Origin: Aceticella autotrophica
GTDB lineage: Bacteria > Bacillota > Thermoanaerobacteria > Thermoanaerobacterales > Thermoanaerobacteraceae
Assembly: GCF_017357865.1 (NCBI RefSeq)
Contig: NZ_CP060096.1
Location: 496,001-560,000, forward strand
DNA length: 64,000 nt
Direction of reading: 5' to 3'
Shown here: positions 43,811-51,310 of the stretch, piece by piece
Layout of the letters: each line of letters starts with the position of its first letter
Position numbering within the stretch: the first letter of the stretch is position 1
Notes under the pieces: generated by a model
Seen by the model: the letters and a program-made list of their open reading frames with translations, nothing else
Database searches by the model: none
Told to the model about the DNA's origin: nothing
Program-made: the position numbers and the translations under genes

Positions 43811-45580
43811 AAAAGAAGGGAGTGAAACCATGAAAATACCATATGGGATGTCCAACTTCAAAGCCATGAGAGAAGAAGGATACCTCTATGTAGACAAGAC
43901 AATGTACATAGAGAAGCTCGAGCGATTAAACAGCAAATATATATTTTTCATAAGACCGAGACGGTTCGGGAAGAGCTTATTTTTGTCAACACTTGAACAC
44001 TATTATGACATAAATGCACAAAAAGACTTTGACAAGCTGTATGGAGATTTGTATATAGGGAAAAATCCGACAAAACTAAAAAACGGCTATATGGTATTAG
44101 AACTTAATTTTTCCGGGTTAAATACAGATAATAAAGAAAGGTTACAAGAATCATTTTTATTAAGTGTAAAGAATTCAATAATTTCCTTACTCAATAAATA
44201 TGATAATATAATAAATAACACAGAAGAAATAAAAAACAAAATAGATGGAATAAATGATATAAATGCTGTTATTTCAATATTGATAAATGAAGTAGAAAAA
44301 GCAGGCAAGAAGATATACCTCATAATAGACGAATACGACCATTTTGCAAATGACATCATAGCGATGGGAGATAATGTTTTTTATAAAGATATAGTAAGAG
44401 CATCAGGCTTTGTAAGGGACTTCTATGAAACAGTAAAAATAGGAACAAAAAATGTAATAGACAGGATATTCATAACAGGCATATCGCCAATAATGCTGGA
44501 TGATTTGACGAGCGGATTCAACATAGCATCAAATGTGACAATGGATTTAGGTCTAAATGAGATGCTGGGATTTACAGAAGAAGAGGTAGTAAAAGTAATA
44601 GAAGAAATAGGAATAGGTAAAAAAGGTGGATTAATAGACAACCTAAGAGAACTATACAATGGATATCTGTTTAATAAAAATGCAGGAACGAGAATATACA
44701 ATCCTGATATGGTACTATACTATTTTGACAGTTATACAAGATATAGAAAGCCGCCGGAATATTTAATAGATGACAATGTAAAAACGGACTACGGCAGGCT
44801 AAACAGGCTTGCAATGAACGAAGAAAATAGAGAAACATTAGAGAAAATAATAAAAGAAGAAAGCATAGTATCGGATATAGTAACCAAATTCTCCTTTGAC
44901 AGGATGTATGACCAGGAATACTTTGTATCCCTTTTATTCTACATGGGATTATTAACGATAGGCAGGCAAGAAAAAACAAGGCTGCTACTGCAGATACCCA
45001 ACTACGTAATCAAGACAATAATGTGGGAATATATAGAATTAAGCATAAAGAAAAAATATAATATTAAACTTGATTTAAATACATTAAGAAAATCAATAGA
45101 AGATATGGCGTATGAAGGCAAAATAGAACCATATATAGATTATATAAGCCAGAATGTGCTAAAAATGCTGTCAAATAGAGACATGATAAACTTTGACGAA
45201 AAATATATAAAAATAATTTTATTTTCATACATTGTAAACAGCATGGCATATAGACCCATAAGCGAAAGAGAAACAGAGAACGGATATATAGACATATACT
45301 TAGAAAAAGACATAAGGATGCCGGACGTAAAATACGAATGGCTGATAGAACTGAAATATATAAAAAAGAGTGACGAAAAAAATATTGATGCGGTAATAAA
45401 AGAAGGAGAAGAGCAGCTAAAGAAATATGCTGAGAGTCAACAATACAAGGGGAAACAAAACATAAAAAAAGCCCTTATTATATTCATAGGCAAAGGTGAA
45501 TATAGAATCATATTAAATGATTGAAAGAAGAAACTTATATTTCTAAGTCAATACTGAAACTTTTACAAAAGAATTTCAAA
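43811..45580 (+). repeat. Tandem duplication, unit 1 (1,770 bases)
   Basis: The unit runs from AAAAGAAGG before the first AAA-ATPase gene to the base before the same AAAAGAAGG at 45581. Units 1 and 2 are exactly equal in length, and nearly identical except for 44961-45248 in this unit. Confidence 0.9.
43830..45524 (+). CDS. AAA-ATPase-like / PD-(D/E)XK nuclease protein, copy A
   Basis: 564 residues. The N-terminal AAA-ATPase-like domain (PF09820 type) opens MKIPYGMSNFKAMREEGYLYVDKT and has Walker A RRFGKSLFLS (GKS 47-49) and Walker B YLIIDEYDHF. The C-terminal DUF1703-type domain carries PD-(D/E)XK residues Asp488 and Glu507-x-Lys509 (ELK). The family is widespread, often multicopy, and of unsettled function; roles in recombination or selfish spread have been suggested. 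It is nearly identical to copy B except at residues 378-473. GAAGGGAGTG precedes the ATG. Confidence 0.88.
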   Translation: MKIPYGMSNFKAMREEGYLYVDKTMYIEKLERLNSKYIFFIRPRRFGKSLFLSTLEHYYDINAQKDFDKLYGDLYIGKNPTKLKNGYMVLELNFSGLNTDNKERLQESFLLSVKNSIISLLNKYDNIINNTEEIKNKIDGINDINAVISILINEVEKAGKKIYLIIDEYDHFANDIIAMGDNVFYKDIVRASGFVRDFYETVKIGTKNVIDRIFITGISPIMLDDLTSGFNIASNVTMDLGLNEMLGFTEEEVVKVIEEIGIGKKGGLIDNLRELYNGYLFNKNAGTRIYNPDMVLYYFDSYTRYRKPPEYLIDDNVKTDYGRLNRLAMNEENRETLEKIIKEESIVSDIVTKFSFDRMYDQEYFVSLLFYMGLLTIGRQEKTRLLLQIPNYVIKTIMWEYIELSIKKKYNIKLDLNTLRKSIEDMAYEGKIEPYIDYISQNVLKMLSNRDMINFDEKYIKIILFSYIVNSMAYRPISERETENGYIDIYLEKDIRMPDVKYEWLIELKYIKKSDEKNIDAVIKEGEEQLKKYAESQQYKGKQNIKKALIIFIGKGEYRIILND

Positions 45581-47350
45581 AAAAGAAGGGAGTGAAACCA
45601 TGAAAATACCATATGGGATGTCCAACTTCAAAGCCATGAGAGAAGAAGGATACCTCTATGTAGACAAGACAATGTACATAGAGAAGCTCGAGCGATTAAA
45701 CAGCAAATATATATTTTTCATAAGACCGAGGCGGTTCGGGAAGAGCTTATTTTTGTCAACACTTGAACACTATTATGACATAAATGCACAAAAAGACTTT
45801 GACAAGCTGTATGGAGATTTGTATATAGGGAAAAATCCGACAAAACTAAAAAACGGCTATATGGTATTAGAACTTAATTTTTCCGGGTTAAATACAGATA
45901 ATAAAGAAAGGTTACAAGAATCATTTTTATTAAGTGTAAAGAATTCAATAATTTCCTTACTCAATAAATATGATAATATAATAAATAACGCAGAAGAAAT
46001 AAAAAACAAAATAGATGAAATAAATGATATAAATGCTGTTATTTCAATATTGATAAATGAAGTAGAAAAAGCAGGCAAGAAGATATACCTCATAATAGAC
46101 GAATACGACCATTTTGCAAATGACATCATAGCGATGGGAGATAATGTTTTTTACAAAGATATAGTAAGAGCATCAGGCTTTGTAAGGGACTTCTATGAAA
46201 CAGTAAAAATAGGTACAAAAAATGTAATAGACAGGATATTCATAACAGGCATATCGCCAATAATGCTGGATGATTTGACGAGCGGATTCAACATAGCATC
46301 AAATGTGACAATGGATTTAGGTCTAAATGAGATGCTGGGATTTACAGAAGAAGAGGTAGTAAAGATAATAGAAGAAATAGGAATAGGTAAAAAAGGTGGA
46401 TTAATAGACAACTTAAGAGAACTATACAATGGATATCTTTTTAATAAAAATGCAGGAACGAGAATATACAATCCTGATATGGTACTATACTATTTTGACA
46501 GCTATACAAGATATAGAAAGCCGCCGGAATATTTAATAGATGACAATGTAAAAACGGACTATGGAAGGCTAAACAGGCTTGCAATGAACGAAGAAAATAG
46601 AGAAACATTAGAAAAGATAATAAAAGAAGAAAGCATAGTATCGGATATAGTAACCAAATTCTCCTTTGACAGGATGTATGACCAGGAATACTTTGTATCA
46701 CTTTTATTCTACATGGGATTATTAACGATAAAAGATAACATGTATAACATAACAAAGCTTATTATACCCAACTATGTAATAAAGACTATATTTTGGGAGT
46801 ATTTCGAAAAAAAACTGAAAGAAGAAAACAACATAAAATACGAAACTGAAGAAATGGCAAAAGCCATATGGGATATGGCTTTTGAGGGGAAGATAGAACA
46901 ATTTATAGAATTTATAAGTCAGAACATACTGATTAAACTATCAAATAGAGACATAATAAAATTTGACGAAAAATATATTAAAGTGATATTATTCACATAT
47001 TTAACGATGACTAATGTATATAGACCCATAAGCGAAAGAGAAACAGAGAACGGATATATAGACATATACTTAGAAAAAGACATAAGGATGCCGGACGTAA
47101 AATACGAATGGTTGATAGAACTGAAATATGTAAAAAAGAGTGACGAAAAAAATATTGATGTGGTAATAAAAGAAGGAGAAGAGCAGCTAAAGAAATATGC
47201 TGAGAGTCACCAATACAAAAGGAAACAAAACATAAAAAAAGCCCTTATTATATTCATAGGCAAAGGTGAATATAGAATCATATTAAATGATTGAAAGGAG
47301 AAACTTATATTTCTAAGTTAATACTTAAATTTTATAAAAAAAATTTCAAA
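45581..47350 (+). repeat. Tandem duplication, unit 2 (1,770 bases)
   Basis: Matches unit 1 including its 3' spacer. A third AAAAGAAGG at 47351-47359 follows, as expected if unequal crossing-over at this 9-mer made the tandem. The diverged segment is 46731-47018. Confidence 0.9.
45600..47294 (+). CDS. AAA-ATPase-like / PD-(D/E)XK nuclease protein, copy B
   Basis: 564 residues with the same Walker A, Walker B, Asp488 and ELK residues as copy A. I see only three substitutions in the first 377 residues and about five in the last 91. Residues 378-473 are only about half identical (GRQEKTRLLLQ in A against KDNMYNITKLI in B at its start), with no length change. The segment joins the ATPase to the nuclease core. 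The same GAAGGGAGTG ribosome-binding site is used. Confidence 0.88.
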   Translation: MKIPYGMSNFKAMREEGYLYVDKTMYIEKLERLNSKYIFFIRPRRFGKSLFLSTLEHYYDINAQKDFDKLYGDLYIGKNPTKLKNGYMVLELNFSGLNTDNKERLQESFLLSVKNSIISLLNKYDNIINNAEEIKNKIDEINDINAVISILINEVEKAGKKIYLIIDEYDHFANDIIAMGDNVFYKDIVRASGFVRDFYETVKIGTKNVIDRIFITGISPIMLDDLTSGFNIASNVTMDLGLNEMLGFTEEEVVKIIEEIGIGKKGGLIDNLRELYNGYLFNKNAGTRIYNPDMVLYYFDSYTRYRKPPEYLIDDNVKTDYGRLNRLAMNEENRETLEKIIKEESIVSDIVTKFSFDRMYDQEYFVSLLFYMGLLTIKDNMYNITKLIIPNYVIKTIFWEYFEKKLKEENNIKYETEEMAKAIWDMAFEGKIEQFIEFISQNILIKLSNRDIIKFDEKYIKVILFTYLTMTNVYRPISERETENGYIDIYLEKDIRMPDVKYEWLIELKYVKKSDEKNIDVVIKEGEEQLKKYAESHQYKRKQNIKKALIIFIGKGEYRIILND

Positions 47351-47558
47351 AAAAGAAGGAAAATATAAATTTTTGTCGAATATATAAATAATAGCATGTG
47401 ATCCGATAAAATTTATGAGGTTGTTTCGGCACCCTTAAGTATTTATTGGTGGTAATATAAGCTTCAATAGCGGAGGTAGTATTTTTAATCATCTACGACC
47501 GTATGGCGGAGCATTGCCTTTTTTAAATACAAATAAAGTGATATAATATAGGTGTGAT

Positions 47559-48350
47559 ATGATAAACAATAAAAGTGAAAAAATTATTAATAATAAGTAT
47601 GATAAAGGATATAAATATTTGTTATCATATAAAAAAGTGTTTATTGAGTTTTTAAGAAGCTTTGTTAAGAAAGACTGGGTAAATCAAATAGAAGAATCAA
47701 AAATAATAAGGATAAATAAATCATTTATACTACAGGATTTCAAAAATAAAGAAGCTGATTTGGTTTACCAAGTAAAATTAAGGGATAAAGAAGTTTTTTT
47801 CTACGTATTAATGGAATTACAATCAAAGGTTGATTTCCAAATGCCATACAGATTGTTGCTGTATATAATTGAAGTATGGAGGGAAATCCTAAAAGATTCC
47901 TCATTAAAGCAGCAGAAGAGGAAAGGATATAAATTACCCGCAGTTGTTCCTATTGTATTGTATAATGGTGCTAACAACTGGACTGCATCTTTGAATTTTA
48001 AAGAAACAATAGATTCATATGAGTTATTTGGAGAAAACATAATAGATTTTAAATATATTTTAATTGATGTAAATAGATACAGTGAAGAAGAACTTCTGCA
48101 ATTATCAAATCTCATAGGAAGTATATTTTTACTTGACAGAAAAACAGATAGAGAAAAATTACTGGAAAGATTAAGGAAATTAACGAATGTGTTAAAGAAC
48201 CTGTCAGAAGATGAATTTGTATTACTGAGAAACTGGGTTACATCAATAATTTCGAGGTCATTACCCGAAGAAAAGAAAAAAGAAGTAAAAGAAATATTAG
48301 AAAGTAGTAAGGAGGTAAGCAACAGCTACCTTATTTCCAACAAATCTTGA
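47559..48350 (+). pseudogene. Rpn-type PD-(D/E)XK nuclease/transposase gene, 5' part, split by IS607
   Basis: Encodes the first 252 residues of an Rpn-family protein (YDKGYKYLLSYKKVFIEFLRSF; nuclease residues Asp67 in EADLVY and Glu86-Leu-Gln88 in MELQSK). The genuine sequence ends at ILESSKE; after 48315 the frame reads into the IS607 left end and adds VSNSYLISNKS before a stop. The continuation is at 51009-51310. Removing the element gives one frame of 352 codons. The truncated protein keeps its whole nuclease core and might still act. A TATAAT (about 47541) lies upstream. Confidence 0.9.
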
Positions 48351-48381: not shown

Positions 48382-49032
48382 ATGGAATTATTAACTATAA
48401 GCAAAGCAGCAAAGAAGCTAGGTGTTCATCCCAACAGCCTGCGCAACTGGGAAAAGCAAGGTTTAATCAAGCCTGTCCGTTTGCCCAGTGGTCAGTGCCG
48501 ATACTCCATAGACGAACTCAATAAGCTTTTGCAATCCGGACAGATAAACACTGGGCAGGAAGACGTTGTTTTATATGCCCGGGTATCCACTAAAAAGCAG
48601 GCAGATGCCGGCAATTTAAACAGACAATTGGAAAGGCTGAGGCAATATGCCGATGAATCAAATTACCATGTTGTTGCAGAGTTCACCGACGTAGCCAGTG
48701 GCTTAAATCAGAAACGCCGTGGTTTGACGAATGTGCTCAAGTTAGCTGAACGTGGTGAATACAAGAAACTTATAATCGAGTATCCTGACCGGCTGGCTCG
48801 GTTCGGGTATTTGTATATTGAGCGACACTTGCACTACTGTGGGGTGGAGATAATCGCTATAGCCGAGAAAGAGCCTGAAGATACACAATCCGAGCTGGTC
48901 AGGGACTTATTGGCGATAATCACGTCTTTTTCAGCCAGGCTGTATGGCACCAGAGGAGGTAAAAAGATAAGGCAGGGTTTTCGGGAACTGATAACAGAGG
49001 TGAAGTCAGATGGAGAAAAGGAAAAAGAATAA
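48382..49032 (+). CDS. tnpA: IS607-family transposase TnpA (serine recombinase)
   Basis: 216 residues. The N-terminal MerR-like helix-turn-helix (ISKAAKKLGVHPNSLRNWEKQG, with the wing LPSGQCRYS) precedes a small serine-recombinase catalytic domain with Ser69 in LYARVSTKKQ, plus the arginine-containing EYPDRLARFG. The order DNA-binding then catalytic is the reverse of ordinary resolvases and is diagnostic of IS607. The 3' end overlaps tnpB by 23 bases. Confidence 0.95.
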   Translation: MELLTISKAAKKLGVHPNSLRNWEKQGLIKPVRLPSGQCRYSIDELNKLLQSGQINTGQEDVVLYARVSTKKQADAGNLNRQLERLRQYADESNYHVVAEFTDVASGLNQKRRGLTNVLKLAERGEYKKLIIEYPDRLARFGYLYIERHLHYCGVEIIAIAEKEPEDTQSELVRDLLAIITSFSARLYGTRGGKKIRQGFRELITEVKSDGEKEKE

Positions 49033-50713
49033 ATCGTACAGCCCTGACGGTGAAACAAGCAGCGCCGTCTGCGGTGAATTTTTCCCGGAAATCTACCCTG
49101 CCTTACGTTCAAAAAAGTGGAGCCGTGGGATGGAGGACCCGCTAAACACTGAAATGCGTCTTTTCTGTTCCTGTACACGCTGGGCTTTTAACCGGCTGCA
49201 AGAAGATAAATCACGTGAAGAACTAAAAAAAGAAGGTCAGCAGGTATTTGGCTTGAATTCACGATACTGTGATGATGCCATACTGAAAGCCAAAGCCATA
49301 ATCGAATCTCAAAAAGAGCTTTTAAAAATGGAAAAAGAAGAAACAAAAACAAAACTGACCCGTGCGAAGAAGAAACTCAGTTGGGCAGAAAAAACCTTAG
49401 ATAAATCTGTTGAAAAAAACGATTTGGAAAAAATCAAAAATCTTAAACGCACTGTACATGGTCGCAAAGCCAAGGTGAAAAAACTATCTGACAAGCTGGA
49501 TGAGCTAAAGGTTCACCAAGACAATGGCACCATACCAACAGTAGTTTTCGGAGGTCATTCTTTGTGGAAGAAAGTTTGCAAAGGCAGAATTCCGATAGAA
49601 GAATGGCGTAAGGCGCGTCAAGACAGGTTATATTCCCGCGGCGACAAAACCAAAGGCGGTAACCCGAACATAAAGATAAGCGAACATGACGGTGAGTTTT
49701 TCTTATCAGTGACCATTTCTCACCTGTCCGAGCAAAAAGGCACGGATAAAAAAGATAGACCAATAATGACCAGAGCGCCCCATGTAGAAGGCAGGCTGTG
49801 GCTGCCGGATAAATACCGTTCAAAGGTGTATGAATTACTTTTGTCTGGTGCACCTTATACAGTAGAACTTATCAAAGGCAAGGATGACAGGTACAGGGGA
49901 CATATCAGTTTCGACTTAACACCACCTGATTTAATAACTAATCCCGACTATGGATATTTAGGTATGGATACCAACCCTGACGGAGTAGCGCTTGCCAATG
50001 TCGGTTATACCGGTCAGCCGGAACCATGGGCAGAGAATTTTAACGTATCATACCCAAAAGCCCTGCACAAATTTGACGGTGAATTTCAGATAAAGATACA
50101 TCCAAATGGTTTTCTTTACATCAAGATACCAGAACTATCTTACAGTTCTGGATACCGGCGTACTTACTTAGTCGGTGTGTTAGCCAAGATAGTAGTAGAC
50201 ATTGCTAAAGCCTTGGGTAAACCCATAGCCTTAGAAAAGCTGGACTTCGGGAAAGACCATCTAAATACCAACAAAAAATTCAACCGCATGGCAGCCAATT
50301 TCCCTTTTAAAAAGATGGTCGAAGCTGTCATACGCAGGGCTTTCAAAGAAGGAGTAGGTGTAAAGCAGGTATGGCCAGCGCACACGTCAACCATAGGTTA
50401 CTGGAAGTACAAAAAGAAGTACGGCATAATAATACACCATGCCGCAGCATTGGTCATAGCACGTCGTGCGATAGGTTTCAAAGAGCGTATTACCGATGAA
50501 TTAAAACAGAAAATCCAAGTTCTTAAAGAAAAGCTGAATCAAAAGGCAAATTCCTTGCCTGGGGAAGGAAGAGGGATGACCCGAAAGGTAAAGCAGCTCT
50601 TCAAGAAACTGGACGGAAAGATTCTTAAGTTTAATGGTCTGACCCGTTTCAAACAAGAATCATTTTATTCTGTCTGGCATGAATTGAAGCATCTTGCTTT
50701 ATCAAGTAGGTGA
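49010..50713 (+). CDS. tnpB: IS607-associated TnpB-like protein, copy 2, full length
   Basis: 567 residues, longer than the common TnpB of about 400. A Lys/Glu-rich coiled coil (about 95-175) precedes the RuvC parts: motif I Asp320 in LGMDTNPDG, motif II Glu409 in ALEKLDFGK. The motif III region reads IIHHAAALVIARRAIG (His476-His477) with no acidic residue, and there are no cysteines for the usual zinc finger between II and III. The start ATG 49010 has GAGGTGAAG upstream inside tnpA. Classic TnpB is an RNA-guided DNA nuclease; this one may use another catalytic residue or be a binding protein. Confidence 0.85.
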   Translation: MEKRKKNKSYSPDGETSSAVCGEFFPEIYPALRSKKWSRGMEDPLNTEMRLFCSCTRWAFNRLQEDKSREELKKEGQQVFGLNSRYCDDAILKAKAIIESQKELLKMEKEETKTKLTRAKKKLSWAEKTLDKSVEKNDLEKIKNLKRTVHGRKAKVKKLSDKLDELKVHQDNGTIPTVVFGGHSLWKKVCKGRIPIEEWRKARQDRLYSRGDKTKGGNPNIKISEHDGEFFLSVTISHLSEQKGTDKKDRPIMTRAPHVEGRLWLPDKYRSKVYELLLSGAPYTVELIKGKDDRYRGHISFDLTPPDLITNPDYGYLGMDTNPDGVALANVGYTGQPEPWAENFNVSYPKALHKFDGEFQIKIHPNGFLYIKIPELSYSSGYRRTYLVGVLAKIVVDIAKALGKPIALEKLDFGKDHLNTNKKFNRMAANFPFKKMVEAVIRRAFKEGVGVKQVWPAHTSTIGYWKYKKKYGIIIHHAAALVIARRAIGFKERITDELKQKIQVLKEKLNQKANSLPGEGRGMTRKVKQLFKKLDGKILKFNGLTRFKQESFYSVWHELKHLALSSR

Positions 50714-50717
50714 CCCC

Positions 50718-51008
50718 GTTTAGCCGGAGTTCGGAAACAACCGGTAAGTCTAATCTAACAGATTGCGGGAGGCAGAGCAATAGCCTCGCTTAACGGTCAA
50801 CGCAAGACGAAAACCCTTATAGTTTTCCATATGACCGTGTTTTGCGCCCGTAAAGCGCCGTTCTCCCGTCCGGGTGGAACTCCCGGGACTAAGATCTCCC
50901 TGTCGCCCCAGAAAAAATTATTTCAAGGAGGTGTAAAGCCTGGTCATGGGGAGGTCGGGTTTACAAAAATTAATTATTGTTAAGTATTGTAAACTTTTTT
51001 GAACCAGG
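50718..51008 (+). ncRNA. Candidate guide-RNA (omega/reRNA) region of IS607 copy 2
   Basis: About 290 noncoding, GC-rich bases conserved with copy 1 over stems such as CCGGTAAGTC..., GTCCGGG and CCCGGGAC. Relative to copy 1 there is an extra segment of about 37 bases after CGCAAG (about 50807-50842), placed like an added hairpin. By analogy with TnpB systems the guide would be the right flank, beginning CGGAAGAAATG in the Rpn gene. Not demonstrated. Confidence 0.45.
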
Positions 51009-51310
51009 CGGAAGAAATGATTTCCAATTTAGAACGTTCTTTGAAGCATGAATTTAAAAAAAGTAAAATAGAAGGCAAAAGAGAGGGCAAAATAGAAGGC
51101 AAAATAGAAGGCAAAATAGAAGGCAAAATAGAAGGCAAAATAGAAGGAATACTTGCGGTTTTGATAGAGCAATTAAGAGAAAAATTTACAAATGTACCAT
51201 CTGAATTTGTAGATGAACTTAAAAAATTAGACGAAAAAAAATTGCTTCTTATAGCGAAAGATATCTTTAAAATAGAAAAAATAGATGATTTAAAAAAATA
51301 TATAAATTGA
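50999..51310 (+). pseudogene. Rpn-type gene, 3' part after the IS607 insertion
   Basis: The open frame starts at TTG 50999 within the element end (MNQ) and joins host codons from 51009: AEEMISNLERSLKHEFKKSK, a KIEG repeat, then ILAVLIEQLREKFTNVP and a helical tail, the usual C-terminus of Rpn-family proteins. It lacks a convincing ribosome-binding site. With residues 1-251 of the upstream part it forms the original protein of about 352 residues. Confidence 0.9.
51065..51148 (+). repeat. 12-base tandem repeat encoding (KIEG)7
   Basis: Seven in-frame units of AAAATAGAAGGC; unit 2 differs (AAAAGAGAGGGC, giving KREG) and the last base of unit 7 differs. It encodes a highly charged, probably helical linker, likely to vary in copy number by slippage. 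Confidence 0.95.

Follow-up and report, generated by a model that had tools for sequence, protein, structure and literature searches.

In type I restriction systems, the HsdS subunit has a conserved frame that carries exchangeable target-recognition domains, and recombination occurs within the conserved parts. STAND/AAA+ proteins and PD-(D/E)XK nucleases commonly act as oligomers. Rpn nucleases are multi-copy PD-(D/E)XK proteins which combine a conserved catalytic part with a variable part and have a reported anti-phage action (PMC10327210). For DUF1703 proteins, paralog expansion and intragenic recombination were already reported in Cardinium cCpun (Siozios 2019; PMC6387759). In the portions of the DUF1703 literature searched, no mention was found of fixed module edges, pre-genus allele classes or their reassortment, or of tandem copies that are nearly the same apart from one module.

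Here I describe two tandem DUF1703 genes, A and B, in a 64,000-nucleotide stretch of Aceticella autotrophica DNA (hereafter the window). The A/B family resembles HsdS in that discrete variable modules lie between conserved blocks and are reassorted by recombination. Unlike HsdS, it belongs to another protein family and has no methylase or HsdR partners, and a role in specificity would be comparable by analogy only. Like the Rpn nucleases, A and B are multi-copy PD-(D/E)XK proteins with conserved catalytic and variable parts, and an Rpn-type gene adjoins the array. Rpn proteins vary in a C-terminal tail with repeats, whereas DUF1703 proteins vary in four internal modules. The modules recombine, and A and B are paralogs of this mosaic family, which quite probably consists of ATPase-gated nucleases whose specificity would be set by these modules.

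Two tandem genes that differ in one island

The two repeat units (Table 1) are each 1,770 bases long and align without gaps. They differ at 137 of the 1,770 positions. Of these mismatches, 108 lie in a 288-base island and 21 elsewhere in the genes, while the 56-base 3′ spacer accounts for the other 8. Thus, the sequence-only reading of two near-identical units with a 288-base island and a closing 9-mer was confirmed. Both genes encode proteins of 564 amino acids with an N-terminal ATPase domain (PF09820, 182-183 bits; gathering cut-off 26.1) and a C-terminal PD-(D/E)XK nuclease domain (PF08011, 61-64 bits; cut-off 25.5). They are the sole DUF1703 copies detectable genome-wide at an E-value of 0.001. 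The DUF1703 signature is present in both, with an atypical Walker A (RPRRFGKS), a Walker B (DEYD) and the nuclease D...ExK; the domain architecture and these motifs are the same as in the DUF1703 proteins described earlier (PMC1913061; PMC6387759).

Table 1. Positions of the DUF1703 array features in the window
Feature	Position	Strand	Basis or remark
Repeat unit 1	43811..45580	+	19-base leader, gene A, spacer
Repeat unit 2	45581..47350	+	leader, gene B, spacer copy
Third AAAAGAAGG 9-mer, end of array	47351..47359	+	direct reading
Gene A, DUF1703 ATPase-nuclease, V3 class I	43830..45524	+	PF09820 E=1e-53, PF08011 E=9e-17; V3 tree
Gene B, DUF1703 ATPase-nuclease, V3 class II	45600..47294	+	PF09820 E=6e-54, PF08011 E=1e-17; V3 tree
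Walker A end F46-G47-K48-S49 of A, conserved block C1	43965..43976	+	invariant in 67 homologues
V1 of A, residues about 89-158	44094..44303	+	helices between strand 87-93 and Walker B strand
V1 of B	45864..46073		near-identical to that of A; variable in other genomes
Walker B D167-E168-Y169-D170 of A, conserved block C2	44328..44339	+	invariant in 67 homologues
V2 of A, residues about 260-313	44607..44768	+
V2 of B	46377..46538		protein sequence same as that of A; variable in other genomes
V3 of A (the 288-base island, residues 378-473), a wing hairpin with a helical bundle ahead of the nuclease core	44961..45248	+
V3 of B, residues 378-473	46731..47018	+
Nuclease catalytic region D488 to E507-x-K509 of A	45291..45356	+	invariant in 67 homologues; model strands 485-493, 503-511
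V4 of A, residues about 505-564, C-terminal part of the nuclease	45342..45521	+
V4 of B	47112..47291		variable in other genomes
Rpn/YhgA-like nuclease gene (PF04754), conserved Thermoanaerobacter neighbor, interrupted in the window	47559..48350	+

Outside residues 378-473, the proteins differ at seven residues (T131A, G140E, V256I, I511V, A521V, Q537H, and G541R), while the identity inside is 53%, as anticipated from the letters (a few changes outside, about half of the residues matching inside). The edges of the island are sharp. The first and last mismatches in gene A are at 44961 and 45247; the 80 bases preceding the former contain a single mismatch, and the 80 bases following the latter contain none. 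The dS/dN values are 1.66/0.40 in the island, 0.056/0.003 upstream, and 0.043/0.018 downstream, and this contrast indicates that the island and its flanks are of different age. Chance or uneven constraint cannot yield the A/B pattern; uneven constraint without recombination was ruled out by the silent divergence, which likewise rises abruptly at these borders. The earlier reading was right to exclude a simple fresh duplication and to call for recombination with sharp breakpoints, and the silent-site comparison that it proposed gave 1.66 inside against about 0.05 outside. The dN/dS of V3 is 0.24, which gives no signal of positive selection at such depth. Silent divergence in the flanks is uneven, with changes at 3 of 138 silent sites in residues 1-235 versus 9 of 85 in residues 236-377 (Fisher p=0.012), as expected of several conversion tracts but not of one duplication.

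Four variable modules and the structure models

The island is real but is not unique, since V3 is one of four variable modules. In the DUF1703 genes, conserved blocks (Walker A, Walker B/sensor, linker, and nuclease catalytic strands) alternate with V1 (residues about 89-158), V2 (267-311), V3 (378-473), and V4 (511-564); the V2 and V4 of A in Table 1 are drawn slightly wider. Residues R42-P43-R44, F46-G47-K48-S49, D167-E168-Y169-D170, D488, E507, and K509 are invariant among 67 homologues.

The predicted models have pLDDT values of 86.3 for A and 87.3 for B; no solved structure was found by sequence search. Residues 1-411 of the model match Walker-type/STAND ATPases (2qen, Z 15.9; RPP1, 14.9; CED-4, 13.9), and ORC/Cdc6 AAA+ proteins come near these scores, with Z up to 13.0 against the ATPase part. 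The likeness to STAND NTPases, namely the archaeal Walker-type ATPase 2qen, CED-4, and the plant NLR RPP1, covers the ATPase half (Z 13.8-15.9 over 285-310 residues). Unlike these proteins, A and B have a nuclease fused C-terminally and no repeat sensor domain was seen in them, and switching is putative. Residues about 394-564, which include most of V3, match the PD-(D/E)XK nuclease domains of Wolbachia CidB/CinB (Z 10-13, rmsd 2.4-2.8). A and B differ from CinB/CidB in having an N-terminal ATPase fusion, a single nuclease domain, and no adjoining cifA-like partner; the neighbors of the array are a wzy-like gene and the PF04754 gene.

In the models, V1 is a helical stretch preceding the Walker B strand, and V3 is a wing hairpin followed by a helical bundle which stops just before the first nuclease strand (474). 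The V3 modules of A and B are predicted to form the same helices at 53% identity. V3 corresponds to the small alpha-helical region that Knizewski 2007 (PMC1913061) placed between the ATPase and the nuclease. Thus, the models depict a STAND/AAA+-like ATPase, a helical V3, and then a nuclease resembling CinB/CidB, and the suggestion that the island links the ATPase to the nuclease core was borne out by them.

The V modules are mostly AT-richer than the conserved blocks (GC 0.21 in V1 and 0.26-0.28 in V3 versus 0.33-0.37). GC3 is lower in V1 and V2 than in the conserved blocks in both Thermoanaerobacteraceae and Bacteroidia, and GC3 also drops in several V modules. Perhaps this composition of the modules reflects GC-biased conversion in the conserved blocks. 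A foreign origin of V3 was considered from base composition and set aside, because the AT-rich pattern is common to the lineages and indicates no origin.

Age of the V3 classes

In the V3 tree, A belongs to class I with Caldicoprobacter, G023, and the upstream copies of the neighboring genus Thermoanaerobacter/Caldanaerobacter (support 100/99). B belongs to class II with a Thermoanaerobacterales MAG and the downstream copies of that genus. For V3, the data reject a clade of A and B (lnL drop 70.6, p-AU 1.35e-5), and both flank trees join A with B (support 99/99 and 95/89). Class I is the first copy and class II is the last copy in 6/6 genomes with at least two complete copies, although these genomes (five two-copy and one three-copy) are not independent since five come from one genus. 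The V3 tree and the order in the arrays show that V3 marks two paralogous positions which predate the split of the genera. With V3 classes this old and their order kept, the flanks were homogenized in A. autotrophica while V3 stayed distinct. On the evidence of these trees and silent sites, recombination homogenized all of the gene but V3, the predicted helical joint between ATPase and nuclease.

A recent tandem duplication in A. autotrophica followed by import of one V3, whether from another species or from a third member of the family, would also fit the low overall divergence of the flanks, and exchange of foreign modules is documented in relatives (see below). However, the uneven silent divergence of the flanks is unlike one duplication, the V3 classes are in the same order as in Thermoanaerobacter, and no third copy is detectable in the genome. 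I regard this history as unlikely. The sequence-only reading had offered a choice between conversion and import. A history in which the flanks were converted and the island was kept is the better fit in view of the class age, the array order, and the uneven silent divergence.

The same locus in Thermoanaerobacter

In Thermoanaerobacter/Caldanaerobacter, the array has one to three complete DUF1703 copies and is flanked by a wzy/TPR gene on one side and a PF04754 Rpn-like gene on the other, an arrangement also found in the A. autotrophica window. The DNA identity between copies switches between about 90-100% and 52-65% at recurring places, and adjoining modules in Thermoanaerobacter show either 52-65% or 98-100% identity. 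Breaks at the same positions were found in other family members, rather than gradual divergence, which would have spoken against sharp breakpoints. Allele typing of V1-V4 gave seven combinations among 13 complete genes, with all four V2xV3 combinations present; two further genes are cut by contig ends. Four of these genomes are single contigs (G006, G010, G012, and G014). In G006, at 97-100% DNA identity, copies 1 and 3 have a common V2, copies 2 and 3 a common V1, and copies 1 and 2 a common V3 and V4. The module trees reject one another's clades in most comparisons with likelihood drops of up to 130, where the p-values are indicative only because the clades were picked after viewing the alignment. 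As judged from the alignments and the module trees, the V1-V4 alleles are old and discrete, and have been reassorted between copies and species via recombination inside the conserved blocks. In Thermoanaerobacter wiegelii (L030/L042; L030:8070-10919), the two copies are separated by about 4.2 kb containing reverse-strand genes, which may be a mobile element.

The modules might not serve external targeting but be interfaces for self-assembly, which block mixed oligomers or bind class I and class II into an obligate partnership. Class I always occurs with class II in the five two-copy genomes and the three-copy genome, and oligomers are common for STAND/AAA+ and PD-(D/E)XK proteins in general. 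Nevertheless, single-copy genomes are known for each V3 class (G014 and G016), and different lineages diverge in different modules. This explanation seems improbable. The single-copy genomes also imply that carrying several specificities is not obligatory.

Exchange between species

Between G004 and G006, the upstream genes wzy and ssuA have dS values of 0.75 and 1.42. In contrast, the second DUF1703 copy of G004 and the third of G006 have a dS of 0-0.08 from C1 to V2, then 2.8 in V3, and the Rpn-like gene adjoining the array has a dS of 0.017. These low values indicate a recent passage of modules and the neighboring gene between species. For the Rpn-like gene (47559-48350 in the window; L028:12315-13382), dS between G006 and G014 is 1.36 versus 0.088 for wzy; this gene seems to have swapped alleles likewise, to judge from its silent divergence. 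Its tail has short repeats in variable number. In the window, an IS607-type element (48382-51007) splits the Rpn-like gene, whose C-terminal part resumes at 51008-51307; the element comprises a MerR/serine-resolvase TnpA gene (48382-49032) and a TnpB-like gene (49010-50713).

A selfish nuclease family could spread by promoting gene conversion around the breaks that it makes, in paralogous or in foreign copies. The nuclease domain, the frequent recombination, the spread between species, and the similar exchange of the adjacent Rpn-like gene are in line with this. However, self-targeting is hypothetical, the locus is conserved and syntenic, and the V3 classes are vertically inherited. Such a behavior is very unlikely.

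Modules in other lineages

Similar module edges were found in further lineages of two phyla, including termite-gut Bacteroidota and other Clostridia, although chimeras are possible there, since MAGs and draft assemblies make up many of the genomes. Termite-gut Bacteroidota, a Clostridiales MAG, and others have many tandem or close paralogs that are 90-100% identical except in V1 (about 25-60%). The right edge of V1 lies at residues 150-164 wherever V1 differs, in all such lineages, and the edges of V2, V3, and V4 recur in several. The distinct module varies by lineage, being V3 in A. autotrophica and V1 in Bacteroidia. In one tandem pair from Bacteroidia, L092, the two genes are almost the same over their whole length. 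Termite-gut Bacteroidia genomes G061-G064 (L060, L062, L079, and L056) have 24-53 DUF1703-related matches each. Carriage by phages or plasmids was rejected, as the matches there (25 phage and 50 plasmid records) are distant, all below 60% identity.

A serious competitor, which I hold to be possible but not the probable one, is neutral concerted evolution among old paralogs. Conversion would proceed where DNA identity is high and halt at diverged segments, so that neither selection for diversity nor a role in specificity would be needed for the islands to persist. The edges fall exactly where the identity drops, a dN/dS of about 0.24 shows purifying constraint on the V modules, the catalytic motifs sit in the conserved blocks, and plain conversion between old paralogs can also make module mosaics. 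On the other hand, both V3 classes are present in the same order in all six multi-copy genomes from two genera, the distinct module differs by lineage (V3 vs V1), and modules pass between species too, though none of these observations is strictly exclusive.

Neighboring genes

Neither A nor B matched a PADLOC family at an E-value of 0.01. In relatives, 115 neighbor genes match 70 PADLOC families versus 139 for 115 control genes, so that this crude count of families, not genes, shows no defense enrichment. A defense-island setting was dropped since the neighbors are no richer than the controls. No repeated or conserved partner family was seen among the neighbor genes outside Thermoanaerobacteraceae.

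Discussion

Most likely, A and B are ATP-gated nucleases whose variable modules provide target or partner specificity, a role predicted from the domains, the models, and the module pattern. Binding of a cue would lead the ATPase to turn the nuclease on, and the modules would decide which target, partner, or sister subunit is recognized by each copy. The array would thereby carry several specificities on one chassis. The arena may be an intracellular conflict with foreign DNA or phage, which is favored by the fold, the copy-number variation, and the exchange. The PADLOC results for A, B, and the neighbor genes count against it, and I give this somewhat less than an even chance.

More tentatively, DUF1703 may be a combinatorial receptor repertoire, in which four modules, each having old allele classes, are reshuffled over a constant catalytic chassis in tandem arrays, in at least two phyla. 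If so, many specificities would arise from few parts, as in the shuffling of restriction target-recognition domains or NLR domains.

Members of DUF1703 are widespread, and some gut symbionts have dozens of them; the fixed layout of four modules offers a way to approach the family. The modules indicate the probable seat of specificity, and pairs such as A and B are domain swaps already made by nature. Should targets or partners be determined by the modules, the family would be a prokaryotic repertoire system, in which an NLR-like ATPase is fused to a nuclease.
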